NCBI GenBank assembly: GCA_000717735.1
Contig: JOBE01000014.1
Location: 1 to 64,000, forward strand
DNA: 64,000 nt
Direction of reading: 5' to 3'
Source: Streptomyces griseoluteus
GTDB taxonomy: Bacteria; Actinomycetota; Actinomycetes; Streptomycetales; Streptomycetaceae
Below, one piece after another: positions 10,698-28,964 of this stretch (positions are counted from its first letter, which is position 1; each line of letters opens with the position of its first letter). Below the pieces are notes generated by a model. The model did not search any database and was not told the origin of the DNA. It worked only from the letters and a program-made list of their open reading frames with translations. The position numbers and the translations under genes were made by a program.

Positions 10698-12206
10698 TCA
10701 AGCACGCACCCCCCGCAACAAGGCGACCGACACCCCAGCCGCGACAAGCATCAGCAGGGAGGCGGCGACAGCGGCCCCACCCATGGCCTCGACGAAGGCA
10801 CTCCGCGCAGCGTCCAACACAGGCCCGGGAAACCCGAGCGCACCCCCCAACGTTTCCCGCGCGACGGCAGGCGCGGACGAGGGCATCGCGGCGCTGTAGA
10901 CGGCGGCACCCACGGACCCGAGGACGGCCATCCCGAGCGCCCCGCCCAGCTCCTGCCCCGATTCGAGGACGGCGGCGGCGGACCCGGCGCGCTCGGGCGG
11001 GGCCGCGCCGAGGGCGAGTTCGTTGGCGAGGGTCATCGCGGAGACGAGCCCGGCGGCGTAGATGGCGCCGCCGACGAGCACGACCCACAGCGGCGTGGCG
11101 CGGTCGACCCCGGCGAGCCAGGCGAAGCCGCCCGCCGCGGCGAGGAACCCGCCGCCCATGACGTACGCGCGGTCGACCCGGCGGGCGAGCGCCGCGGCCA
11201 CCGGCGCGGCGACGAGGACGCCGCCGGTGGGGACGAGGCTCCAGAGCGCGGCCTCGAAGGGACTCTGGCCGAGGACGGACTGCAGGTACTGGGTGAGGAA
11301 GACGGCGAAGCCGACGGTCGCGACCATGGCGAGCAGGTTGACGAGAACGGAGCCGCCGTAGGCCCGCTGCCGGACGAGGGAGAGATCGACCATCGGATGG
11401 GCGAGACGGGCCTGCCGGCGCACGAACACGAGAACAAGGACAAGCCCCCCGGTGACACCGAGGGCGGGCACCGGCGCCCACCCGTCCTGGGCGAGCTCCT
11501 TGATGCCGTGGATGAGGGGCAACAACGCGGCCAGGGAGAGAAGCGCACTGAGCACGTCGAAGCGCCCGGCGCCGGTGGCCCCCTTGGACTCGGGAAGCAG
11601 CAGGGGTCCGAGGACGAGGAGCAGGGCCATGGCGGGGAGGTTGAGCAGGAAGACGGACCCCCACCAGAAGTGTTCGAGGAGGGCCCCGCTGACGACGGGT
11701 CCGAACGAGATGCCGCTCGCCATGACGGCGGTCCACAGGGTGACGGCCTTGGCGCGCTGGGCCGGGTCGTGGAACAGGGTGCGGATGAGGGCGAGCGTGG
11801 ACGGCATGAGGCAGGCGCCGGCGACGCCGAGGAGGGCGCGGGCGGCGATGAGGGTGCCGGGACTGTGGGCGTAGGCGGCGGCGACGGAGGCGAGACCGAA
11901 GAGGGCGGCGCCGCTGAGGAGGAGCCTGCGGCGGCCGATGCGGTCGCCGAGGGCGCCCATGGTGATGAGGAGTCCGGCGAGGACGAAGCCGTACATGTCG
12001 AGGATCCACAGCTGCTCGGTGGCGCCGGGGCGCAGGTCGGCGGCGATGGAGGGGATCGCGAAGTAGAGGACGGAGATGTCCATGGAGACGAGGAGGAGGG
12101 GCAGCATGAGGACTCCGAGGGCGGTCCATTCGCGGCGGCCGGCACGGGCGGCGGGGCCGGGGCCGGCTCCGGCTCCGGCCCCGGGGTTCGTCGTGAGTGA
12201 GGTCAT
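10698..12206 (-). CDS. MFS drug/H+ antiporter (DHA2-like)
   Basis: 502 residues with many evenly spaced hydrophobic helices, probably 14. The family A motif is visible after helix 2 (ITMGALGDRIGRRR), with an MDISV motif in helix 1 typical of DHA2 multidrug exporters. The ATG at 12206 is preferred because the in-frame extension upstream runs through the shared promoter. It should pump small hydrophobic compounds out across the membrane. The gene is divergent from a GntR-TetR hybrid regulator at 12331, the usual arrangement for an exporter under control of a ligand-responsive repressor, and TAGTACAC-type repeats lie between them. Its substrate cannot be read from sequence. Confidence 0.88.
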   Translation of the reverse strand: MTSLTTNPGAGAGAGPGPAARAGRREWTALGVLMLPLLLVSMDISVLYFAIPSIAADLRPGATEQLWILDMYGFVLAGLLITMGALGDRIGRRRLLLSGAALFGLASVAAAYAHSPGTLIAARALLGVAGACLMPSTLALIRTLFHDPAQRAKAVTLWTAVMASGISFGPVVSGALLEHFWWGSVFLLNLPAMALLLVLGPLLLPESKGATGAGRFDVLSALLSLAALLPLIHGIKELAQDGWAPVPALGVTGGLVLVLVFVRRQARLAHPMVDLSLVRQRAYGGSVLVNLLAMVATVGFAVFLTQYLQSVLGQSPFEAALWSLVPTGGVLVAAPVAAALARRVDRAYVMGGGFLAAAGGFAWLAGVDRATPLWVVLVGGAIYAAGLVSAMTLANELALGAAPPERAGSAAAVLESGQELGGALGMAVLGSVGAAVYSAAMPSSAPAVARETLGGALGFPGPVLDAARSAFVEAMGGAAVAASLLMLVAAGVSVALLRGVRA

Positions 12207-12250
12207 GCGGGGAGAGAAGCAGGAACGTGCGTACACCGCCACGCCCGCCC

Positions 12251-12322
12251 TAGTACACCGTCGTGGCGGCGCACAAATCCCCAAGCCACCAAGGTGTACG
12301 ACGTCATAGCGCACTAGTACAC
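12251..12322. promoter_or_regulatory. Candidate operator between the MFS gene and its regulator
   Basis: The 124-base divergent gap contains TAGTACAC twice in direct orientation (12251-12258 and 12315-12322) and an inverted copy core (GTACACC at 12253-12259 with GGTGTAC at 12293-12299). The second TAGTAC could serve as -10 for the regulator gene that starts at 12331. The repeats suit binding by the adjacent regulator. Confidence 0.45.
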
Positions 12323-17680: not shown

Positions 17681-20233
17681 CTACCTGAGGAGCACTCCCG
17701 CCCCCTCCCCCGTCGTCTCCCCCGGCACGGCCACCAGGCCGAGTTCGGACGGATGGGCGAGCAGCGGGTGGGTGGGGCGGACGCGGACCGTGCAGCCGAA
17801 GGAGCCGGTGCGGTCGAGCTCCAGGGTGCCGGCGTAGGTCAGCCTGCCCTCCAGATCCGGGCCGGCCGCCGGTTTCAGCGGGACGGCACGGGTGTCGGTG
17901 AGGGTGTCGTCGGCGTCGACCCGGCCGGTGACGGCCTGCACCTCGACGTCGTCGGGGCCGAGCGCGCCGAGCGCCACCCGGACCCGGACGACCGGGGTGG
18001 CGCCCAGCTCCGCGTCCGCGAGGTCGTCGGCGAGCCCGTCGCCGACCTCGACGTGGTCGACGGTCACCTTGGGCCAGGCCTCCCGGACACGGGCCTTCCA
18101 GGCGGCGAGGTCCCGGGCGCGGGCCGGGGTGAGGGCCCGGCGGGCGGTGGCGGCGGGCACGTAGAGCCGCTCGACGTACTCGCGGACCATCCGGTCGGCG
18201 AGCACCTTCGGGCCGAGGTCGGCGAGGGTGCGCCGGACCATCGCCGTCCATCCCGCGGGCACCCCGTCGGGGCCCCGGTCGTAGAAGCGGGGGGCGACCC
18301 GGCGTTCGATCAGCTCGTAGAGGGCGGCGGCCTCCAGGTCGTCGCGCCGGTCCTCGTCGGCGGCCGCGGCCCCGTCGGCGGTGGGGATGGCCCAGCCGAA
18401 GTCGGGCTCGAACCACTCGTCCCACCAGCCGTCGAGCACCGACAGGTTGAGGCAGCCGTTGAGGGCGGCCTTCATGCCGCTGGTGCCGCACGCCTCCAGG
18501 GGGCGCAGCGGGTTGTTCAGCCAGACGTCGCAGCCGGGGTAGAGGCCGCGGGCCATCGCCATGCCGTAGTCGGGCAGGAAGACGATCCGGTGCCGGACCC
18601 GGGGGTCGTCGGCGAACCGGACGAGTTCCTGCACGAGCCGCTTCCCGCCGTCGTCGGCGGGGTGGGCCTTTCCGGCGACGACGAGCTGCACCGGCCGCTC
18701 GGGGTGGAGCAGGAGTGCCCGCAGCCGGTCCTTGTCGCGGAGCATCAGGGTGAGCCGCTTGTAGGAGGGGACGCGGCGGGCGAAGCCGATGGTGAGGACG
18801 TCGGGGTCGAGGACGGAGTCGGTCCAGCCGAGTTCCGCGGCGGCGGCCCCGCGCTGCCGCCAGGAGGCCCGAAGGCGTTCCCGTACGTCGGTCACGAGCC
18901 GTTCGCGGAGGGTGCGGCGCAGCTCCCACAGCTCGCCGTCGCTCGCGTCGGGGCCGAGCCGGCCGACCTCGGGGGCGACCCAGGTGGGGGCGTGGACGCC
19001 GTTGGTGATCGAGGTGATCGGCACCTCCTCGGCGTCGAAGCCCGGCCAGAGCCCGGCGAACATGGCGCGGCTGACGGCCCCGTGGAGGGTGGAGACGCCG
19101 TTGGCGCGCTGGGCGAGGCGCAGGCCCATGGCGGCCATGTTGAAGAGGCCGGGCTCGCCGCCGAGCGGGGTCTCGTCGCCGAGGGCGAGGATCCGCCCGG
19201 TGTCGACGCCGGGGAGCGCGCCGTCCTCGCCGAGATGGCGGGCGACCAGGCCCCGGTCGAAGCGGTCGATGCCGGCCGGGACGGGGGTGTGGGTGGTGAA
19301 GACCGTCCCGGCCCTGACGGTCTCCAGAGCGCTGTCGAAGTCGAGCCCCTCGCGCTGGAGTTCGCGGATCCGTTCGAGGCCGAGGAAGCCGGCGTGGCCC
19401 TCGTTGGTGTGGAAGACCTCGGGGTCCGGGGTGCCGGTGAGCCGGGTGTACGTGCGGACGGCGCGGACTCCGCCGATGCCGAGCAGCATCTCCTGGAGCA
19501 GCCGGTGCTCGCTGCCGCCGCCGTACAGCCGGTCGGTGACGCCGCGTTCTCCGGGGGCGTTGTCCTCGACGTCGGAGTCGAGCATGAGGAGCGGGACGCG
19601 GCCGACCTGGGCGATCCACAGATGGGCGTGCAGGCTGCGCCCGCCGGGCAGGTCGAGGGTGATCCGGGCGGGGGTGCCGTCGGCCTCGCGGAGCAGGGTG
19701 ACGGGCAGTTCGCCGGGGTCGAGGACGGGGTACTGCTCCTGCTGCCAGCCGTCCCGGGCGAGGGACTGGCGGAAGTAGCCGTGCCGGTAGAGCAGTCCGA
19801 CGCCGATCAGGGGGACGCCGAGGTCGCTCGCGGACTTGAGGTGGTCGCCGGCGAGGATGCCGAGGCCGCCGGAGTACTGGGGCAGGGCGGCGGTGACGCC
19901 GAACTCGGGCGAGAAGTAGGCGAGGGCGGCGGGCGCGCCGGACTGCTCCTGGTACCAGCGGGGGGCGTGGAGATAGGCGTCGAGGTCGTCGGCGGCCGCG
20001 CGCAGCCGGGCCAGGAAGTCCTGGTCGGCGGCGAGCGCGGTGAGCCGGGAGGCTTCGAGGGTGCCGAGGATCCGGACGGGGTCGGCGCCCGGCGGGCTCT
20101 GCGGGGAGAGCGAGGCGAAGAGGGCGCGGGTGGGTTCGTGCCAGGACCAGCGCAGGTTGTGCGCGAGGTCGGCGAGGGGTCGAAGGGTGTCGGGGAGGAC
20201 GGGACGCACGGTGAATCGACGGATTGCCTTCAC
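17681..20233 (-). CDS. glgP: Alpha-glucan phosphorylase (short GT35 type)
   Basis: 850 residues from a GTG at 20233 that has a GAAGGTGG site seven bases upstream; a GTG at 20242 is the alternative. The N-terminal DUF3417 module (RRFTVRPVLPDTLRPLADLAHNLRWSW) marks the actinobacterial/thermophile class. The pyridoxal phosphate lysine is K588 in CGTSGMKAALNG. It releases glucose 1-phosphate from non-reducing ends of glycogen in the cytoplasm. In S. coelicolor, as recalled, the equivalent gene lies directly beside glgE; here six kilobases of accessory genes separate them. A long hairpin (20258-20304) lies just upstream of the start. A short gap and no clear operon partner suggest it is transcribed alone. 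Confidence 0.92.
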   Translation of the reverse strand: MKAIRRFTVRPVLPDTLRPLADLAHNLRWSWHEPTRALFASLSPQSPPGADPVRILGTLEASRLTALAADQDFLARLRAAADDLDAYLHAPRWYQEQSGAPAALAYFSPEFGVTAALPQYSGGLGILAGDHLKSASDLGVPLIGVGLLYRHGYFRQSLARDGWQQEQYPVLDPGELPVTLLREADGTPARITLDLPGGRSLHAHLWIAQVGRVPLLMLDSDVEDNAPGERGVTDRLYGGGSEHRLLQEMLLGIGGVRAVRTYTRLTGTPDPEVFHTNEGHAGFLGLERIRELQREGLDFDSALETVRAGTVFTTHTPVPAGIDRFDRGLVARHLGEDGALPGVDTGRILALGDETPLGGEPGLFNMAAMGLRLAQRANGVSTLHGAVSRAMFAGLWPGFDAEEVPITSITNGVHAPTWVAPEVGRLGPDASDGELWELRRTLRERLVTDVRERLRASWRQRGAAAAELGWTDSVLDPDVLTIGFARRVPSYKRLTLMLRDKDRLRALLLHPERPVQLVVAGKAHPADDGGKRLVQELVRFADDPRVRHRIVFLPDYGMAMARGLYPGCDVWLNNPLRPLEACGTSGMKAALNGCLNLSVLDGWWDEWFEPDFGWAIPTADGAAAADEDRRDDLEAAALYELIERRVAPRFYDRGPDGVPAGWTAMVRRTLADLGPKVLADRMVREYVERLYVPAATARRALTPARARDLAAWKARVREAWPKVTVDHVEVGDGLADDLADAELGATPVVRVRVALGALGPDDVEVQAVTGRVDADDTLTDTRAVPLKPAAGPDLEGRLTYAGTLELDRTGSFGCTVRVRPTHPLLAHPSELGLVAVPGETTGEGAGVLLR

Positions 20234-20257
20234 GCTGTCCACCTTCGCAGGCGAGTA

Positions 20258-20360: not shown

Positions 20361-21686
20361 TCAGCCGGTGGCGGGGAGCGGCACCTCGTACGGGGAGCCC
20401 TGGTTGACGGTCGTCGGGTCGAAGGCGCCGGTGGCGGCGTACCGGCCGGCGATGGCGGCGAGTTCGTCGGCGGGGATGACCTCGTGGATGTCGGTGAAGC
20501 CGTGCGGGGCGCGCGCGTGCGCGAGGTCGATGACGACCTCGGGGCCGCGTTCCCGGTTGGCGCGCTGGAGCGCGGTGGTGACGGGCCGGCGTTCGCGCTC
20601 GTACGCGGCGAGGCCCTCGGAGGGGTCGTCGGAGTGCCTGGCGAGGGCGTGGGCGAGGGCGCGCGCGTCGACGATCGACTGGGTGGCCCCGTTGGAGCCG
20701 ACGGGGTACATGGCGTGGGCGGCGTCGCCGACGAGGGTGGTGCGGCCGTGGGTCCAGCGGTCGAGCGGGTCTCGGTCGACCATCGGGTACTCGTGCGCGG
20801 AGTCGGCGGCGCGCAGCACGTCGGGGACGCTGACGCCGTCGAACTCCCAGCCCTCGTAGAACGGCAGGAACGTCTCGACGGGGACGGTGCGGTCCCAGTC
20901 CCCGCGCAGCCGTTCCTCCGGCGGCGCGCCGTCGGGCTCCGCGGGCCTGGCGAGCGCCCAGTTCACCAGGACCTCCCGGCTCTGACCGGTCGGCCGGCTC
21001 ATCGGGTACACCACGGCCTTCTGCCGGTCGTCGCCCGCGATGAGCATGAAGGAGCCCACCGCCCGCGCCGGCATCCGGGACACTCCCCGCCACACCAGCA
21101 TCCCGTTCCACGGCGGTCCGCCCTCCGCCGGGTGCAGGGCTGCCCGCACCGCCGAGCGGATGCCGTCGGCGCCGACGAGGACGTCGGGGACGAGCGAGGC
21201 CTGGCCCCGTACGGCGCCCTCCCGGTGTTCGAGTCGCAGCCGGGGCCTGCCGTCCGGCAGCGGCTCCACTCCGCTCACCCGGACGCCGGTGACGAGCGCC
21301 GCCGCCCCGAGCCTGGCCCGTACAGCGCCCGCCAGGACCTGCTGGAGGTGCCCGCGGTGGACGGAGAGCTGCGGCCAGCGGTAGCCCGCGCCGAGGCCGC
21401 GGGGTTCCCGGGATATCAGCCCGCCCGAGCGGTGGTAGTAGCGCAGCTCGCGGGTGCGCACGGCGCCCGCCTCCAGGGCGTCGAGCAGGCCGAGGGCGGC
21501 CAGTTCGCGGACCGCGTTCGGCATCAGGTTGAGCCCGGCGCCGACCGGGCGGATCGCGGGCGCCGCCTCGACGACGGTCACCCGCTCGAAACCGGCGGCG
21601 TGCAGGGCGAGGGCGGCGGTGAGGCCCGCGATGCCACCGCCGGCGATCACGATGTGCGGGCTCTGCCCATAGGCGTGGGGGGACAT
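20361..21686 (-). CDS. FAD-dependent monooxygenase, PhzS-like
   Basis: 441 residues of the PHBH fold. The Rossmann motif IAGGGIAGLTAALALHAAGF, the DG motif DVLVGADGIRSAVR and the GD motif LVGDAAHAMYPVGSNGATQSI are intact. Several stretches recall PhzS of phenazine biosynthesis (IRPVG.G.N..P.AV, YPMVDRDPL, WRGV), a flavin hydroxylase acting on aromatic acids. It should use NAD(P)H, FAD and oxygen to hydroxylate or oxidatively decarboxylate an aromatic substrate. It is the last gene of a minus-strand operon with the PrnB-like gene (22-base gap) and HpaB-like gene. No phenazine core genes are nearby, so the substrate is probably made by its neighbours. The ATG has a GAAGGAG site. Confidence 0.88.
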   Translation of the reverse strand: MSPHAYGQSPHIVIAGGGIAGLTAALALHAAGFERVTVVEAAPAIRPVGAGLNLMPNAVRELAALGLLDALEAGAVRTRELRYYHRSGGLISREPRGLGAGYRWPQLSVHRGHLQQVLAGAVRARLGAAALVTGVRVSGVEPLPDGRPRLRLEHREGAVRGQASLVPDVLVGADGIRSAVRAALHPAEGGPPWNGMLVWRGVSRMPARAVGSFMLIAGDDRQKAVVYPMSRPTGQSREVLVNWALARPAEPDGAPPEERLRGDWDRTVPVETFLPFYEGWEFDGVSVPDVLRAADSAHEYPMVDRDPLDRWTHGRTTLVGDAAHAMYPVGSNGATQSIVDARALAHALARHSDDPSEGLAAYERERRPVTTALQRANRERGPEVVIDLAHARAPHGFTDIHEVIPADELAAIAGRYAATGAFDPTTVNQGSPYEVPLPATG

Positions 21687-21708
21687 CTCGACTGCTCCTT
21701 CGGCGCCG

Positions 21709-22815
21709 CTACGCGGCCGACGGCCCGACAGGGGCCCCTGCGGGACGGCGCCGCACGGTCGCGCGGCGCACCATGGTCTCGTTCTCCCTGGTCAGGTCCA
21801 GGACCGAGCGCAGCAGCGCGACCGGGGCCCCGCCGCTGCCCTCCTCGTACAGGCGCACGTCCTCGCTGTACGCCTTGCGGGCGATGCCGAGGTGCCGGGC
21901 GCGGAAGGTCTTCAGGACGCGCAGCACCCGGCCCAGTGCCTCCGCTGAGGCGGTGAGCGAGGGCGGCAGCCGGTCCGCGCCCTCCCAGCTCACCGCGGCC
22001 GACAGCTTGCTCACCGCGGACACCCCGCCCCGGTGCCGGGCGTGGAACTCGCGCCAGGCCGGCAGCGCGTACGGCACCGCCTCGGCGAGGAAGGCGTCGT
22101 AGGCGGGGTCCGGGCGGTCGCACTGCCACAGCGTCAGATCGACCAGCCAGAGCGGCACCTGCGCGGCGGCCGGGCCCAGGTAGTCGCGGCCCGCGATCTC
22201 GATCTCCTCGTAGTACGGGCGCAGGGTCAGGGCGAAGTACTCGGGCGACACCCGGGCCACGGTCAGGTCGATCGAGTCGACCATCGCCCGGACATGGCGG
22301 GCCACCCGGTCGAGGGCCGCCGCGAATCCCGGGTCGTACGGTTCGAGGCGGGCGATCCGGCCGCAGTCGTCGAGCGCGGCGACGAGGCCGGGGAGCACCA
22401 TCCGTACGGATTCCTGGAGCAGGGCCTCCGTGGGGTGGCCGGTGTAGGAGCGGCGGCGGGGGCCCACCGGGTTCCAGGTCGTGTAGTGGTGGACGGTGTC
22501 CCGGGGCACCATGTCGGTGCGCCTGGCGAGGAGTTCGAGGACGGGGAGCGCCTCGGGGACGGCGGCGAGCGGCTGTACGCCGTGCCGTTTCAGCGAGCCC
22601 AGCAGGATGCCGAGGTCCCGCATGGCCGCGAGGGCGCCGTCGACGCTCCACTCGGCGGCCCGGTCCTGGTCCGGGAGCAGGGCGCGCAGCGCGACGGTCA
22701 GCGCGGGCACGTCGGCCGCCGCGTTCATCGCGGGCACGGCGGCGAGCAGGGCGTCGGCGCCGAGGGGGTCGGCGGCACGTATGTCATGGGTCCGATGGCG
22801 CCGATCGCCGAACAC
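21709..22815 (-). CDS. PrnB-like haem-dependent oxygenase (IDO/TDO-related)
   Basis: 368 residues from a GTG at 22815 with an AAGGGAG site; this matches the roughly 360-residue length of PrnB. Conserved blocks resemble monodechloroaminopyrrolnitrin synthase: AMRDLGILLGSLKRHG, RTDMVPRDTVHHYTTWNP, YTGHPTEALLQESVRM, YLGPAAAQVPLWLVD, and FRARHLGIARKAY. The proximal haem histidine is predicted as H308, eight residues before the conserved Y316, as in PrnB. A Gly-Ser-Gly-Gly loop near the end is also kept. PrnB rearranges 7-chlorotryptophan in pyrrolnitrin synthesis; relatives in this haem superfamily oxidise tryptophan, tyrosine or indoles. No tryptophan halogenase is in the window, so the substrate is likely different. 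It is the middle gene of a probable operon. Confidence 0.85.
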   Translation of the reverse strand: MFGDRRHRTHDIRAADPLGADALLAAVPAMNAAADVPALTVALRALLPDQDRAAEWSVDGALAAMRDLGILLGSLKRHGVQPLAAVPEALPVLELLARRTDMVPRDTVHHYTTWNPVGPRRRSYTGHPTEALLQESVRMVLPGLVAALDDCGRIARLEPYDPGFAAALDRVARHVRAMVDSIDLTVARVSPEYFALTLRPYYEEIEIAGRDYLGPAAAQVPLWLVDLTLWQCDRPDPAYDAFLAEAVPYALPAWREFHARHRGGVSAVSKLSAAVSWEGADRLPPSLTASAEALGRVLRVLKTFRARHLGIARKAYSEDVRLYEEGSGGAPVALLRSVLDLTRENETMVRRATVRRRPAGAPVGPSAA

Positions 22816-22931
22816 GACAGCACTCCCTTTCTTCATGGTTCGGTTCGCCGGAAACACGGGTCACTCGCCGGTGGTCACGGCACCGGGGCCGGTTTCGGAG
22901 CGCCCGCGCCGGGCCGCCACGTGCGGTGTCG

Positions 22932-24356
22932 TCACCGGGTCGTCCCCAGGCCGTAGCCGTCGAGGCAGGCCTGGGCGAGGCTCTCGCATCTTTCGGCGGC
23001 CCCGGCCCGGGTCTGCATGGTCAGGTAGACGTGCGGGGCGCCGTGGTAGAAGCGCTCGTACTGCTCGTGGCGGCCCGCGAACTCGGAACCGAGGGCGTCC
23101 CAGGCGAGTTTGAGGAGTTTGACGCGGTCCTCCGCGGGGTGGCCGGGGGTGCCGAAGTACCGGCGGACCAGCGGCCCGAGTTCGGGGTGGAGGAGGTCAC
23201 GGCCGCTCGCGGGAAGCTGGACGAGGGCCCCGCCCGCGAGGAGCTTGATGTCCTGGACGGCGCGCGGGTAGAGCTCGCCCGCCATGATCCGCTGGGCGTG
23301 GGAGATCTCCTGCCCGGGGCGGACGCCGCCGCGCCCGCCGTCGACCTCCTCGTACGAGGCCTCGGCGGCGAGGACGAACGCCTTGGCCTGGGCGACCATG
23401 CCGAGGAGGCGGCCGACGGCCTGGACGACGGGCGGCAGCTGCTCGGTCCCGTGGGAGCGGGTGATGAGGATCGCCAGGCCGGTGAGGAACTCCAGCTTGG
23501 TCCAGAAGCGGGTGGCGGACTGGTGGACGAAGTTCAGGTAGGCGGGGGTCTGCCACCAGATCGCGCCGGTGGCGACCGGGTCGCGGTAGGTGAGGACCCG
23601 TTCCCAGGGCACGAAGACGTCCTCGCAGACCAGCATCGCGTCGTTCTCGTCGTACCGGGAGGAGAGCGGGTGGTCGAAGACGGACCGGGAGCGTTCCTCG
23701 TAGGAGGTGCGGGAGATCAGTTTCAGGCCGGGGGCGTCGGGGCGTACGGAGAAGGTCAGCGCGTGCGCGGTGTCGTCGGGGGCGAGCGGTTCGATGGTGC
23801 CGACGAGGATCTCGTCGGCGAAGACGGCGCCGGTGCCGACGGTCTTGGCGCCCCGGACGACGATCCCGCCGTCCCGTTCGGCGACGACCCGCAGGGTCCG
23901 GTCGTCCTCGCCGCCGTCGGGGTTGCCGAGGGTGAAGGCGGCGTGCAGGTCGCCCTCGGCGAGCCGGCGGTGGAAGGCGAGGGCGTGCTCGGCGCCGTCG
24001 AAGGTCCCGCCGGTGAAGACGTCGGGCGCGGCGGCGAACCCGGCCGCGCCGGCCGCCATGTAGTCGGGGGTGCGGCCCAGGTAGCCGTAGCTCGCCTCCG
24101 CGGTCGTGCGGAAGGCCTGTCGGCGGGCGACGAGGTCCTCGTACGAGCGGGGCACGGCGTAGGCGCGGCGCACTCCGCCCTGGACGAGGACGGGGCGGTG
24201 CGCGGGGTCGTCGGCGAGGTCGTGGAGGCCGGCGAAGGAGGCCGCGGTGGACCGGAAGGCGGGGTGGGCGGTGACGTCCTTGACCCGTTCCCCGTCGATC
24301 CAGATCTCGCGCCCGTCGCGCAGCCCCTCCAGATACTCCTGCCCGCACCTCGTCAC
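22932..24356 (-). CDS. HpaB-family FADH2-dependent aromatic monooxygenase
   Basis: 474 residues, full length for the 4-hydroxyphenylacetate 3-monooxygenase oxygenase component. Recognisable blocks are GRTPDYMAAG near residue 93, DGGIVVRGAKTVGTGAVFADEILV, HPLSSRYDENDAMLVCEDVFVPWERVLTY, and the helical C-terminal dimer region with an acyl-CoA dehydrogenase-like fold. Such enzymes ortho-hydroxylate phenols using reduced FAD from a separate reductase. No HpaC-type reductase is encoded in the window, so it must come from elsewhere. It leads an operon with the PrnB-like and PhzS-like genes and is preceded by direct repeats fitting AraC control. The substrate could be a tyrosine- or tryptophan-derived phenol. 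Confidence 0.9.
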   Translation of the reverse strand: MTRCGQEYLEGLRDGREIWIDGERVKDVTAHPAFRSTAASFAGLHDLADDPAHRPVLVQGGVRRAYAVPRSYEDLVARRQAFRTTAEASYGYLGRTPDYMAAGAAGFAAAPDVFTGGTFDGAEHALAFHRRLAEGDLHAAFTLGNPDGGEDDRTLRVVAERDGGIVVRGAKTVGTGAVFADEILVGTIEPLAPDDTAHALTFSVRPDAPGLKLISRTSYEERSRSVFDHPLSSRYDENDAMLVCEDVFVPWERVLTYRDPVATGAIWWQTPAYLNFVHQSATRFWTKLEFLTGLAILITRSHGTEQLPPVVQAVGRLLGMVAQAKAFVLAAEASYEEVDGGRGGVRPGQEISHAQRIMAGELYPRAVQDIKLLAGGALVQLPASGRDLLHPELGPLVRRYFGTPGHPAEDRVKLLKLAWDALGSEFAGRHEQYERFYHGAPHVYLTMQTRAGAAERCESLAQACLDGYGLGTTR

Positions 24357-24423
24357 CGGTGTATCGCCTCTCCTCGGGTGTCACGGCTCTGCCGGTCCCG
24401 AGACTGTCCGGCGGACCCCGGCC

Positions 24424-24466
24424 GAACAATGAACGACCGTCCAGGGGTCCTTAAGAACCGTCCAGG
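24424..24466 (-). promoter_or_regulatory. Direct repeats and -35 element upstream of the oxidative operon
   Basis: The decamer ACCGTCCAGG occurs at 24436-24445 and 24457-24466, 21 bases apart (two helical turns); the match extends to 12 of 14 bases. Read toward the operon, the nearer copy ends six bases before a TTGTTC (24424-24429), with CAGTCT 17 bases further. Direct repeats at this spacing next to -35 are the usual binding pattern for AraC-family activators, and an AraC gene lies right behind. Confidence 0.5.
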
Positions 24467-24505
24467 CGGCCCCGAAGATGTCAGGTCGGACACCCCCTGA
24501 GCGGC

Positions 24506-25519
24506 TCAGGCCGCCCGGACGACTCCCGCGCGGTGCTCCCCGGGGGTCACTCCGAACCACTTGCGGAAGGCGAGGTGGAAGCCGACGGCGCTCTGGTATC
24601 CGACGCGGGCGGGCACGGCGGACTGCGGGAGCGAGGTCTCGGTGAGCAGCCGGCAGGCCTCCTGCATCCGGCGGGCGGCGAGGTATCGGGCCGGTGACTC
24701 CCCGACCAGGTCGCGGAAGGCGGCGGTGAACGCGGAGCGGGACATGCCGACCTCCCGGGCGAGGGAGTCGATCGTCCAGGGTTCGGCGAACCGGGTCGCC
24801 ATCATGACGACCGCCCGGCTGATCCCCGGGTGCCTGAGCAGGGGCAGGGAGGCCGCGCTCCCGGCGAGTTCGCGCAGCAGCGGGCGGAGGGCGAGGACGA
24901 GCGCCATCTCGAAGGCGCGCAGGGTGATGAGCCGGTCCCCGGGGCGGACGGGCCGGTCGGGGTCGGCGAGCAGCCGCAGGGTGTCGCGGAGCAGCGGCTC
25001 GCGGTCGACCTGGGCGCCGTCGAGGACGAGGGCCCAGGGCAGGGAGCCGTAGAGGCCGGTGGCGGCGCTGGCGTCGTAGTGGAGCCCGGCGCAGAGCAGC
25101 CGGCTCTCGGGTCCGCTGCCGCCGATGACGATCTCGCCCGAGGTGCCGGGTTGCCGCTCGGGCAGGACGGCCTTGAGCGGGACGCCCTGGCGTTCGGGCC
25201 GGTCGGAGAGGCGGTGCGCGGTGCCGGTGGGGAAGACGACGAGGTCTCCGGCGTGCAGGGCGACGGGCGTCTCGCCGTCGGCGGTGATCCAGCAGTCGCC
25301 CTCGACGACGTAGTGGAGGACGGCGCAGCTGCGTTCGGCGTCGCCCTCGATGGCCCAGGGGGCGCGGACGTGCCAGCGGCTGTCGAAGACGCCGGTGAGG
25401 CGGAGGGGTTTGAGCAGTTCGCTCAGCAGGTCGTCGTGTTCTTCGTCGTGCGATTCGTACGGTCCGTGCGGTGCGTACTGCTCGCGCTCGTCGTGACGGT
25501 CGGTTCCCACGGTGTCCAT
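24506..25519 (-). CDS. AraC-family regulator with cupin sensor domain
   Basis: 337 residues. A short acidic leader precedes a cupin domain (about 35-200) with the HAGDLVVFPTGTAHRL core. The C-terminal 100 residues form two helix-turn-helix units (WTIDSLAREVGMSRSAFTAAFRDLVGESPARYL and RVGYQSAVGFHLAFRKWFGVTPGEHR). These cupin-AraC regulators usually control a neighbouring oxidoreductase or pathway in response to a small ligand. Here it is divergent from an NmrA-like gene and sits 149 bases upstream of the HpaB-PrnB-PhzS operon on the same strand, so it is the obvious local regulator. The ATG has an AAGGA site seven bases upstream. Confidence 0.88.
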   Translation of the reverse strand: MDTVGTDRHDEREQYAPHGPYESHDEEHDDLLSELLKPLRLTGVFDSRWHVRAPWAIEGDAERSCAVLHYVVEGDCWITADGETPVALHAGDLVVFPTGTAHRLSDRPERQGVPLKAVLPERQPGTSGEIVIGGSGPESRLLCAGLHYDASAATGLYGSLPWALVLDGAQVDREPLLRDTLRLLADPDRPVRPGDRLITLRAFEMALVLALRPLLRELAGSAASLPLLRHPGISRAVVMMATRFAEPWTIDSLAREVGMSRSAFTAAFRDLVGESPARYLAARRMQEACRLLTETSLPQSAVPARVGYQSAVGFHLAFRKWFGVTPGEHRAGVVRAA

Positions 25520-25637
25520 GGACGATCCTTCAACTTCCGCCCCGGTTTGTTAATTGAACGGCCGAAGCCGCCCCGGCGAGCCTGGAGGAACGCCGACACG
25601 GCAGCGGCGACAGCCTATCGAAGGGCCTCAGACACAC

Positions 25638-26579
25638 ATGTCCAGTGAGATTCCGATGCGGGTGGCGGTGGTGGGAGCGACCGGGTTCCAGGGCGGTGCG
25701 GTGGCCCGGCTGCTCGCCGGGCGGCGCCACCGGGTGCGGACCCTGACACGGCGCGCGGCGGCCGACCGGCCGCCGCTGCCCGGGGCCTTCTTCCTGGCGG
25801 GCGATCTGGGGCGGCGGGACGACGTGCGGCGGCTCTTCGAGGGGACGACGCACGCGTTCGTCACGATGCCGCTGGTGTACGAGAGCGAGCGGGTGGAGGT
25901 GTACGCGCGGAACGTCGCGGCGGCGGCCCGGGAGGCGGGGACGGAACGTCTGGTCCTCAACGCCAACACCCGGGTCCCGCTGGGCCCGACGGAGGTCGCC
26001 GCATTCGAGACGCGGCGGCTCGCCGAGCGGGTGCTGCGGGACAGCGGGGTGCCGCTGGTGGTGATCCGGCCGCCGGTGTACCTGGACAACCTGTTCTCGC
26101 CGTGGAACGGTCCGTCCCTGGTCGACGAGGGCGTACTCGCCTATCCGCTGCCGGAGTCGACGCGGACGGCGTGGCTCTCGCACCGGGACCTCGCGGAGGC
26201 GGCGCTCGCGGCGCTGACCCTGGAGGGCGTGGAGGGGCGGACCTTCGACATCGGCGGCGCGCGTTCGCTGACGGGCGGTGAGCTGGCGGCGGCCTTCGGC
26301 CGGGGGCTCGGCCGTGCGGTGCGGTACGAGGAGCTGGATCCGGCCGCTTTCGAGCGGGGTCTGGCCCGGTTGCTCGGTCCGCAGACGGCGGCGGGGGTGG
26401 CCGGGATCTACCACTACATGGCGAGCGGCGCCGATCCGCTTCTGATGGCGGACGACGACGGGGTGTCGACGGAGGTACTCGCTCTCGGACCGGCCCCGGT
26501 GGAGGAGTGGGTGGCCCGTCAGCCCTGGCAGATCTGGTCGACGGACGCGGACGAACCGGACCCGACGCCCCGCCGCTGA
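25638..26579 (+). CDS. NmrA-like NAD(P)-binding oxidoreductase
   Basis: 313 residues from the ATG at 25638. The N-terminal Rossmann motif (VAVVGATGFQGGAVARLLAGR) and the overall pattern match NmrA/isoflavone reductase-like atypical short-chain dehydrogenases. The classical YxxxK is absent, as is common in this family, some of whose members sense the NADP redox state and do not catalyse. It lies divergent to the AraC gene, with a shared 118-base promoter region, and is followed by a strong terminator, so it forms its own unit. It may act in the adjacent aromatic pathway or act as a stress-linked quinone reductase; the sequence does not decide. Confidence 0.85.
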   Translation: MSSEIPMRVAVVGATGFQGGAVARLLAGRRHRVRTLTRRAAADRPPLPGAFFLAGDLGRRDDVRRLFEGTTHAFVTMPLVYESERVEVYARNVAAAAREAGTERLVLNANTRVPLGPTEVAAFETRRLAERVLRDSGVPLVVIRPPVYLDNLFSPWNGPSLVDEGVLAYPLPESTRTAWLSHRDLAEAALAALTLEGVEGRTFDIGGARSLTGGELAAAFGRGLGRAVRYEELDPAAFERGLARLLGPQTAAGVAGIYHYMASGADPLLMADDDGVSTEVLALGPAPVEEWVARQPWQIWSTDADEPDPTPRR

Positions 26580-26885: not shown

Positions 26886-28960
26886 ATGCCCGCAACCCGC
26901 CGGCCGTCGACGGAGCTAGAAAGAGCGAACCACCACCCGCACCCCCGTAACCCTTCAGGTGATGCCGTGAATCCGCTCATGGGACGCATTCCCGTACTGG
27001 ACGTCCGCCCACTGGTCGACTGCGGTCGGCGCCCCGCGAAGGCGGTGGCCGGAGAGTCCTTCGAGGTGACGGCGACCGTCTTCCGCGAAGGCCATGACGC
27101 CGTCGCCGCCAATGTCGTGCTGCGCGGCCCTTCGGGCCGGCCCGGCCCCTGGACCCCGATGCGGGAACTGGCTCCGGGCACCGACCGGTGGGGTGCCGAG
27201 GTCACCCCGGACGCCGAGGGCCTCTGGACGTACACCGTCGAGGCGTGGAGCGATCCGGTGGCGACCTGGCGCCACACCGCGAAGATCAAGATTCCGGCCG
27301 GGATCGACTCCGAACTCGTCCTCGCCGAGGGCGCCGAGCTGCACGAGCGGGCCGCCAAGGGCGTCCCGAAGAAGGGCGGCGGCCGGGAGGCGGTGCTCGC
27401 GGCGGCGGACGCGCTGCGGGACGCGTCCCGGCCGGCCGCGGTCCGGCTCGCGGCGGCGCTCGCCCCGCGGGTGGTCGAGTCCCTCGACCGGTACCCGCTG
27501 CGCGAACTCCTCTCCTCCTCGGCCGCGTTGCCGCTGCGGGTGGAGCGGGAGCGTGCCCTGTTCGGTTCCTGGTACGAGTTCTTCCCGCGCTCGGAGGGCG
27601 TACGGAAGGTCAAGGGCCGTACGGTTCCGGGGAACTTCCGCACCGCGGCCGAGCGGCTGCCGGCGATCGCCGCGATGGGCTTCGACGTGGTGTACCTGCC
27701 GCCGGTGCACCCGATCGGCGAGACCCACCGCAAGGGCCCCAACAACTCCCTCTCGGCGTCGCCGAACGACGTGGGCGTGCCGTGGGCGATCGGTTCGCCC
27801 GAGGGCGGGCACGACGCGCTCCACCCGGACCTCGGCACCTTCGAGGACTTCGACGCCTTCGTGGCGCGGGCCAGGGAGCTGCGTCTGGAGATCGCGCTCG
27901 ACTTCGCGTTGCAGTGCTCCCCCGACCATCCGTGGGTGGAGAAGCACCCGGAGTGGTTCCACCACCGGCCGGACGGTTCGATCGCGTACGCGGAGAACCC
28001 GCCGAAGAAGTACCAGGACATCTATCCGATCGCCTTCGATCGCGACATGGACGGGATCGTCGCGGAGACCGTGCGGGTCCTTCGTCACTGGATGGACCAC
28101 GGGATCCGGATCTTCCGCGTCGACAACCCGCACACCAAGCCGGTGGTGTTCTGGGAGCGGGTGATCGGCGAGATCAACCGGGCCGACCCGGACGTGATCT
28201 TCCTGGCGGAGGCCTTCACCCGGCCGGCGATGATGCGGACGCTCGGCGCGATCGGCTTCCAGCAGTCGTACACGTACTTCACCTGGCGGAACACCAAGGA
28301 GGAGCTGACGGAGTACCTGACGGAACTGTCCGGGGAGACGGCGGCTCAGATGCGGCCGAACTTCTTCGTGAACACCCCGGACATCCTGCACGCCTACCTC
28401 CAAGAGGGCGGGCGGCCCGCGTTCGAGGCGCGGGCGGTGCTCGCGGCGACGCTCTCGCCGTCCTGGGGCATGTACGCCGGGTACGAGCTGTGCGAGGGCA
28501 CCGCGCTGCGGGACGGCAGCGAGGAGTACCTCGACTCGGAGAAGTACCAACTGCGGCCGCGTGACTGGGAGTCGGCGGAGCGCGCCGGAAAGACGATCAC
28601 TCCGCTGATCACCGCCCTGAACCGGATCAGGCGCCGTCACCCGGCCCTGCGCAGGCTGCGGAACCTGACGTTCCACGACACCGACAACGCCCAGGTGATC
28701 GCGTACAGCAAGCGCTCCGGTTCGAACACCGTTCTGGTGGTCGTCAACCTCGACCCGCACCACACCCAGGAGGCGACGGTCTCGTTGAACATGCCGGAAC
28801 TCGGCCTCGACTGGCACGAGACCGTGCCGGTGCGCGACGAGCTCACCGGCGATACCTATCACTGGGGCAGGGCCAGCTACGTGCGCCTAGAGCCGGGTGT
28901 CACACCCGCGCACGTCCTCGTCCTGCGACCGTCCCCGCAGACCGGAGGGTCACCCACATC

Positions 28961-28964
<4 letters not shown>
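26886..28964 (+). CDS. glgE: Alpha-1,4-glucan:maltose-1-phosphate maltosyltransferase
   Basis: 692 residues, the normal GlgE length, starting at an ATG with an AGGAG site. The N-terminal all-beta domain ([37 protein letters not shown]) precedes a GH13_3 barrel. The catalytic nucleophile is D413 ([10 protein letters not shown]) and the acid/base E442 (FLAEAF), 29 residues apart as in the characterised S. coelicolor enzyme. It adds maltosyl units from maltose 1-phosphate to linear alpha-1,4-glucan in the cytoplasm. It opens the operon glgE-treS-pep2-glgB; its stop overlaps the treS start by four bases. The substrate is supplied by pep2. Confidence 0.97.

Follow-up and report, generated by a model that had tools for sequence, protein, structure and literature searches.

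A widespread operon family built around a PrnB-type haem enzyme in Streptomyces, with a probable link to tryptophan

Analysis of a 64,000-nucleotide stretch from Streptomyces griseoluteus (contig JOBE01000014.1; hereafter the window, meaning the whole stretch) revealed a cluster of genes coding for a PhzS-like flavoenzyme, a PrnB-family haem enzyme, an HpaB-family monooxygenase, an AraC/Cupin_6 regulator and an NmrA-like protein, located between glgP and glgE on the Streptomyces chromosome (host genome of 8.1 Mb, island on contig C14). A first-pass annotation made from the sequence alone had grouped these five genes into one small oxidative route; all five open reading frames (ORFs) were confirmed intact and match the domain profiles of the families then named. 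The features of the locus are listed below, the names glgP-like and glgE-like being our assumption.

20361..21686, minus strand: PhzS-like group A FAD monooxygenase, 441 amino acids (domain and structure-database matches)
21709..22815, minus strand: PrnB-family haem enzyme, 368 amino acids, ORF open from 22857 (profile, model and conserved columns)
22816..22931, minus strand: deletion scar at the place of the major facilitator superfamily (MFS) exporter gene of relatives, 470 amino acids in L031 (alignment to relatives)
22932..24356, minus strand: HpaB-family FADH2-dependent monooxygenase, 474 amino acids, Phe141 at the E. coli His155 column
24427..24464, minus strand: operator-like element TGGACGGTTCTTAA-N20-ATTG, including a direct repeat of TGGACGGT with a 21-bp period
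24506..25519, minus strand: AraC-family regulator with Cupin_6 domain, 337 amino acids (domains; occurrence in relatives)
25638..26579, plus strand: NmrA-like NAD(P)-binding protein, divergent, 313 amino acids (domain; occurrence in relatives)
17681..20242, minus strand: flanking glycogen phosphorylase-like (glgP-like) gene
26886..28964, plus strand: flanking glgE-like maltosyltransferase gene, then a treS-like gene

When genome contigs were scanned with an alignment of PrnB sequences, 89 places were confirmed; the best 80 of them were retained as relatives and grouped into 55 glg-sited Streptomyces loci and 25 others. A glg gene is visible in 54 of the 55, and L064, on a 3.4-kb contig, was assigned by sequence. 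PhzS lies at most 500 bp downstream of PrnB in 77 of the 80 relatives, the exceptions being L037, L107 and L110. AraC and NmrA genes are each found in 69 relatives; the regulator is part of the unit, as first annotated. Counting fragments, 44 of the 55 glg-sited loci show all six families of the unit (the five above and an MFS exporter), and so do 43 of the 50 whose flanking sequence is long enough; Streptomyces exfoliatus NRRL B-2924 and S. tanashiensis are examples of relatives with the complete set. The co-occurrence in other genomes that had been proposed as a check of the first-pass annotation was thus found. Outside the glg site, PhzS is present in 23 of 25 loci and AraC and NmrA in 18 each, in hosts including Nocardioides, Plantactinospora, Actinokineospora, Kitasatospora and Glycomyces as well as Pseudomonadota such as Crenobacter and Aquabacterium. 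A chance neighbourhood is rejected by this co-occurrence: the cluster is a real, widespread and conserved operon family. In L107 (Actinocatenispora, 11130-12296), the ORF behind PrnB resembles by eye a different FAD oxidoreductase, not PhzS.

In quick trees of the six families, with 21-23 chosen rows each, the glg loci form one side of a branch, as do the Nocardioides and Pseudomonadota loci, the glg branch having a support of only 39 in the AraC tree. A single change accounts for the loci that we call type II on the PrnB, PhzS and HpaB trees, against two on those of NmrA, AraC and MFS. In a larger PrnB tree of 83 rows, the glg group is a single clade (100/99), in which the nearest row to the window is S. 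exfoliatus L031 (97% identity). Thirty glgE loci from a draw of 61 genomes, window included, were also sorted by eye: 11 have GlgP within the 1.5-kb flank and no NmrA, and are empty sites, 8 carry the NmrA of the island and 11 have neither. The genome of the window has a single match to the PrnB profile PF08933. Of 295 Streptomyces genomes 36 contain the profile, as do 12 of the 121 in a family-level draw that overlaps the Streptomyces draw.

The sixth family is an MFS exporter encoded between HpaB and PrnB in most relatives. In L031 this gene codes for 470 amino acids and its best NCBIfam model is a DHA2 efflux family, under the cut-off (190.8 vs 230.2). Aligned blocks between the window and L031 stop at 22897 and restart at 22816, leaving short remnants of both gene ends; about 1.3 kb of the exporter gene has been deleted in the window. 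The five genes first annotated are real, and they are an incomplete set. Relocation of the exporter elsewhere in the genome was rejected, its best homologue there being only 42% identical. In a survey of 54 glg loci with a coverage limit set just above 84-85%, MFS is absent in L032, L039, L044, L046, L058 and L061 and reduced to a 31% fragment in L052, while L055, L067 and L077, at 84-85% and just under the limit, were not counted as losses. HpaB is absent or fragmentary in L039, L046 and L058; L037 has no PhzS and L055 a broken one. The genes missing from L063, L070 and L078, like the short PhzS of L065, coincide with contig ends. A single in-frame stop was seen in PrnB of L060 and L069 and in NmrA of L062 and L065. 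Counted by eye on the PrnB tree, exporter losses including that of the window amount to at least seven events.

The gap between AraC and HpaB is otherwise poorly conserved and contains a conserved block (46 aligned sequences, window included), which reads GGACGGTTCTTAA-N20-ATTG in the window. Next to AraC, the loci of Crenobacter and Aquabacterium and those of type II show this bipartite form too, with an unchanged spacer of 20 bases. That the motif is shared across phyla could not be seen in the first-pass annotation. A relaxed pattern, written after sight of these sequences, occurs within 700 bp of AraC in 64 of the 69 AraC-bearing loci and was not found there in L056, L061, L071, L084 and L091; L061 has the motif with one base outside the pattern. 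The relaxed pattern has six more matches elsewhere in the 80 loci, and ten mononucleotide shuffles of all loci gave 3 matches in 15.8 Mb. A stricter pattern has a single match in the genome of the window, at the AraC-HpaB gap, and misses many glg-sited loci. A third pattern is present once each in 32 of 291 Streptomyces genomes (2 for the reversed control); coordinates compared by eye place 20 of these matches at the PrnB locus and 12 elsewhere, and 16 of the 36 PrnB-bearing Streptomyces genomes lack a match to it at their PrnB locus. Within the window, TGGACGGT occurs twice (24457-24464 and 24436-24443), and a direct repeat with a 21-bp period is a layout known from AraC operators. This repeat is not clearly visible in distant loci. 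Only L031 and the window have it in exact form, which explains why an operator pattern that demands an exact repeat was found in 1 of 157 loci. The motif would be the site on which the AraC regulator acts.

Three loci that are motif-negative near AraC have an AraC-HpaB gap of 1-2.1 kb (L071, 4748-6696; L091, 2125-4254; L056, 5928-6957). The AraC-NmrA intergenic region (25520-25637) also contains conserved blocks (50 aligned sequences), where the operator patterns are unmatched. A scan for sigma-70 promoters and terminators found none.

The AraC-family protein combines Cupin_6 and HTH_18 domains and scores below the RclR equivalog cut-off of NCBIfam (118.4 vs 400 bits). The divergent NmrA-like protein has a domain match of E 3.5e-23 and most likely starts at the ATG at 25638 rather than at the TTG at 25554.

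The PhzS-like protein contains FAD_binding_3 (1.9e-23) and matches the NCBIfam model PRK07538 (502.2 vs a 400-bit cut-off). By sequence, its best solved relative is PDB 2rgj/3c96 (E 7e-88), deposited as a flavin-containing monooxygenase, which we take to be PhzS; its best matches on plasmids are 49-52% identical. 'PhzS-like' designates a broad FAD-monooxygenase subfamily and carries no evidence of phenazine chemistry; a look at the five proteins of the island, and not at the remainder of the window or genome, showed no phenazine core gene.

The HpaB-family protein has both HpaB_N and HpaB domains (1.9e-76 and 1.3e-52) and falls below the NCBIfam equivalog cut-offs of HpaB-1 (263.7 vs 885.2 bits) and HpaB-2 (256.4 vs 480.2 bits). 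Columns were followed in E. coli numbering derived from an alignment, where Arg113, Tyr117 and His155 presumably form the substrate-contacting triad. All 65 rows have Arg at the Arg113 column; at the Tyr117 column, 54 of 66 rows have Tyr and the other 12 Cys. The window keeps both residues of the triad. At the His155 column, that of the phenol-contacting histidine, all 65 rows with a letter have Phe (Phe141 in the window). The phenol-contacting residue is lost and the first-pass label of 'phenol hydroxylase' is therefore doubtful, the family assignment itself being sound.

The haem enzyme matches the PF08933 profile with 137.2 bits, over a curated cut-off of 27 (E 8e-40). Its start is most likely at 22815 (368 amino acids) rather than at 22857, because the six closest database homologues have that length. 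A structure model built from a 34-row alignment (pLDDT 86.3) retrieved PrnB chains as its first 12 solved matches (E 3e-20 to 2e-19), with Shewanella SO4414 (2e-8) and IDO (3e-6) lower. The columns of His313, Trp237, Tyr321 and Ser332 (Pf numbering) are kept in 80, 81, 81 and 80 of 81 PrnB rows; the numbering of His313 and the roles of His313, Trp237 and Tyr321 are those we assume for PrnB. The axial haem histidine is thus found in the window and in 80 of 81 rows, the sole exception being L046, with Pro at this column. The substrate-carboxylate serine column (Fb Ser319) is Ser in the window and in 80 of 81 rows. All 81 rows have Tyr at the pocket column, which corresponds to Val117 of Pseudomonas PrnB and Tyr104 of the Flavobacteriales enzyme; the pocket column and the carboxylate role are those given in section 7 of PMC11791213. 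In place of the Gly210/Gly211 pair, through which the Flavobacteriales enzyme contacts the carboxylate, the window has Ala-Ala. A further PrnB homologue, P0028, likewise has Pro at the haem-ligand column, and the L046 locus is also without HpaB and MFS.

The genes beside PrnB in the more distant relatives point to a substrate. In type II loci they include trpC and trpD, joined by trpG, trpE and a class II DAHP synthase wherever the sequence extends far enough; such genes are found in 8 of 14 type II loci (L085, L087, L088, L090, L092, L093, L096, L099), and L085 additionally carries trpA and trpB. In both Aquabacterium loci trpE, trpG, trpD and trpC are above NCBIfam cut-offs (one protein of each scanned) and trpA- and trpB-like matches lie on the opposite strand; L100 has a trpE-like match (38%). 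In 9 of 12 genomes tested, trpC and trpD are each duplicated, with one copy at the PrnB locus and one elsewhere, as matched to locus coordinates by eye. L109 and the glg-sited L031 have one trpC and one trpD over the cut-off, and the extra copies of L048 lie outside its 21-kb locus. Two Glycomyces loci code for a tryptophan halogenase immediately upstream of PrnB (Trp_halogenase 8.5e-163 in L102; that of L103 is 94% identical). Because of these trp genes, their second copies and the halogenase, tryptophan is very likely what enters the PrnB step of these cousins, and by extension it would be the substrate in the window.

Some of these loci are of wider composition. In Aquabacterium (L098, 1455-19650; L101, 1398-19650), PrnB and PhzS are combined with the trpEGDC block and with ebo-like, DsbA-like and NHL-repeat genes. 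Its EboA-domain protein reaches 135.6 vs 50 bits and stays below the full EboA-family model (118.8 vs 320); AroB-like, TatD-like and weakly EboC-like proteins (116.6 vs 250) are also encoded. By analogy, a tryptophan-derived product that is transferred to the periplasm is suggested. In Glycomyces, Thermocrispum and Microtetraspora (L102, 8291-14992; L103, L104, L105), PrnB-PhzS stands beside a stand-alone polyketide synthase-type ketosynthase (KS), with a FabH-like KAS III behind the KS in L102-L104 and adenylation-domain-like and PhyH-like ORFs, named by eye, upstream in L105. No product is inferable from the KS and KAS III genes.

Taken together, these observations somewhat favour a compact biosynthetic operon consuming L-tryptophan, with a PrnB-type step, oxidation by PhzS and HpaB, AraC control and export. 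The PrnB-family enzyme would most likely convert unchlorinated tryptophan to an aminophenylpyrrole-type intermediate by a PrnB-type ring rearrangement, and the flavoenzyme encoded directly behind it may oxidise that intermediate. The FADH2-dependent HpaB homologue would hydroxylate again, probably on something other than a phenol, and the NmrA-like protein might reduce an intermediate. Control by the AraC/Cupin_6 regulator would be exerted at the conserved element that immediately precedes HpaB, and the MFS pump, whose gene is deleted in the window, would export the product in most relatives. The first-pass annotation is thus partly supported: its oxidised aromatic amine or amino acid derivative fits, and the pointers to tryptophan from relatives could not be seen in it.

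Several points weigh against this proposal. Among the 25 non-glg loci, HpaB and MFS were found in just 15, and the window copy has lost its exporter. No trp genes were found in the DNA examined of 6 of the 14 type II loci (L083, L089, L094, L095, L106, L109) or in any of the 55 glg-sited loci, and the window genome has one trpD over the cut-off; tryptophan is therefore an extrapolation from cousins, at PrnB identities of 49-56%. Over the aligned stretch, identity to characterised PrnB is only 39% (Pseudomonas) and 33% (Flavobacteriales). According to the sections of PMC11791213 considered here, PrnB itself has not been made active in vitro, and product claims for its relatives are therefore weak.

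A first alternative, which we consider rather unlikely, keeps the same tryptophan-fed operon and lets the PrnB-family enzyme only hydroxylate tryptophan, as is reported for Luz15, PhzS and HpaB oxidising the hydroxytryptophan further. An HpaB beside a hydroxyindole would be logical, and in PMC13036774 tryptophan hydroxylation is predicted for PdnC, a PrnB homologue of the paenidepsin cluster, and Luz15, considered here by that description, is cited as a haem-dependent tryptophan 5-hydroxylase. However, the same text calls the role of PdnC speculative and does not clade it with Luz15, the model of the window enzyme ranks IDO structures far below PrnB, and HpaB lacks the phenol-contacting histidine throughout. 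It is less likely still that the window copy is a decaying remnant whose exported product is no longer made. The exporter is deleted, with no close copy elsewhere in the genome; 7 of 54 glg-sited loci also lack an intact MFS gene, three of them an intact HpaB too, and L046, without both, has Pro at the haem-ligand column. Yet the five remaining ORFs are uninterrupted, and dN/dS values of 0.07-0.45 (four pairs with four relatives) show purifying selection on them, somewhat weaker than in the flanking GlgP and GlgE genes (0.08-0.19, same relatives); the operator-like motif is intact, and other MFS pumps of the genome (best 42% identity) might substitute. Finally, it is very unlikely that the operon serves to degrade or detoxify an aromatic compound from outside that AraC senses. 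HpaB-type and group A FAD monooxygenases, and AraC-type control, are common in aromatic breakdown, but the five proteins of the island include no enzyme of ring cleavage or of a CoA route, and the trp biosynthesis, tryptophan halogenase, KS and exporter genes of relatives point to making and exporting a compound.

A bolder reading may be put forward tentatively, as one that we doubt more than we believe: the family could represent undescribed tryptophan-derived pathways crossing phyla, in which a halogenase-free PrnB forms a fixed pair with a PhzS-like flavoenzyme that receives its unstable product, an HpaB re-tuned from phenols to an arylamine or pyrrole acts next, and a single ancient AraC operator governs all of them. 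PrnB performs one of the odder haem-enzyme reactions and has resisted reconstitution, as reported in the sections of PMC11791213 cited above. The PrnB-PhzS pair, if real, might hint at why PrnB alone is inactive in vitro, yet the prn cluster is without PhzS. A large natural PrnB family, nearly always trailed by the same kind of flavoenzyme gene, is present in cultured Streptomyces strains. Its regulator, operator-like motif and candidate substrate accompany it, and it offers a product class to seek and a partner protein to try with PrnB-type enzymes.

Among the matches listed, the open-licence literature contained no description of the cluster, most subscription papers being outside that scope. 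A pyrrolnitrin cluster was rejected, as no full-length prnA/prnC-type halogenase is found in the window genome, in agreement with the first annotation; genome-wide, PF04820 yields just two partial matches, each spanning about 60 positions, and the PhzS-like gene itself contains one of the two. No PrnD Rieske N-oxygenase is among the five island proteins, the genome not having been searched for it. Among characterised systems, PhzS (2rgj/3c96) is the closest solved relative of the window FAD enzyme, in a broad subfamily. FADH2 monooxygenases of the HpaB/SgcC type (PDB 4oo2, which we take to be SgcC) share the family domains and the Arg113 and Tyr117 columns and differ at the His155 column, which is Phe here. 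With prnABCD (PrnB: PDB 2v7i series), the island shares a PrnB-family enzyme with conserved haem-ligand and carboxylate-serine columns, and its Glycomyces relatives a tryptophan halogenase preceding PrnB; it differs by its 39% PrnB identity, by Tyr at the Pseudomonas Val117 column, and by PhzS, HpaB, NmrA and AraC, which lie outside the four prn enzymes. The Flavobacteriales PrnB (PDB 9dfg series, PMC11791213) is 33% identical and shares the Tyr104 and Ser319 columns and the fold (TM 0.87). The scytonemin/ebo cluster of cyanobacteria, as described in PMC6282210, starts with ScyB/ScyA/ScyC, not PrnB, and both ebo and trp genes are missing from the island of the window, whereas the Aquabacterium loci resemble that cluster in combining duplicated trp genes with ebo-like, DsbA-like and NHL-repeat genes.

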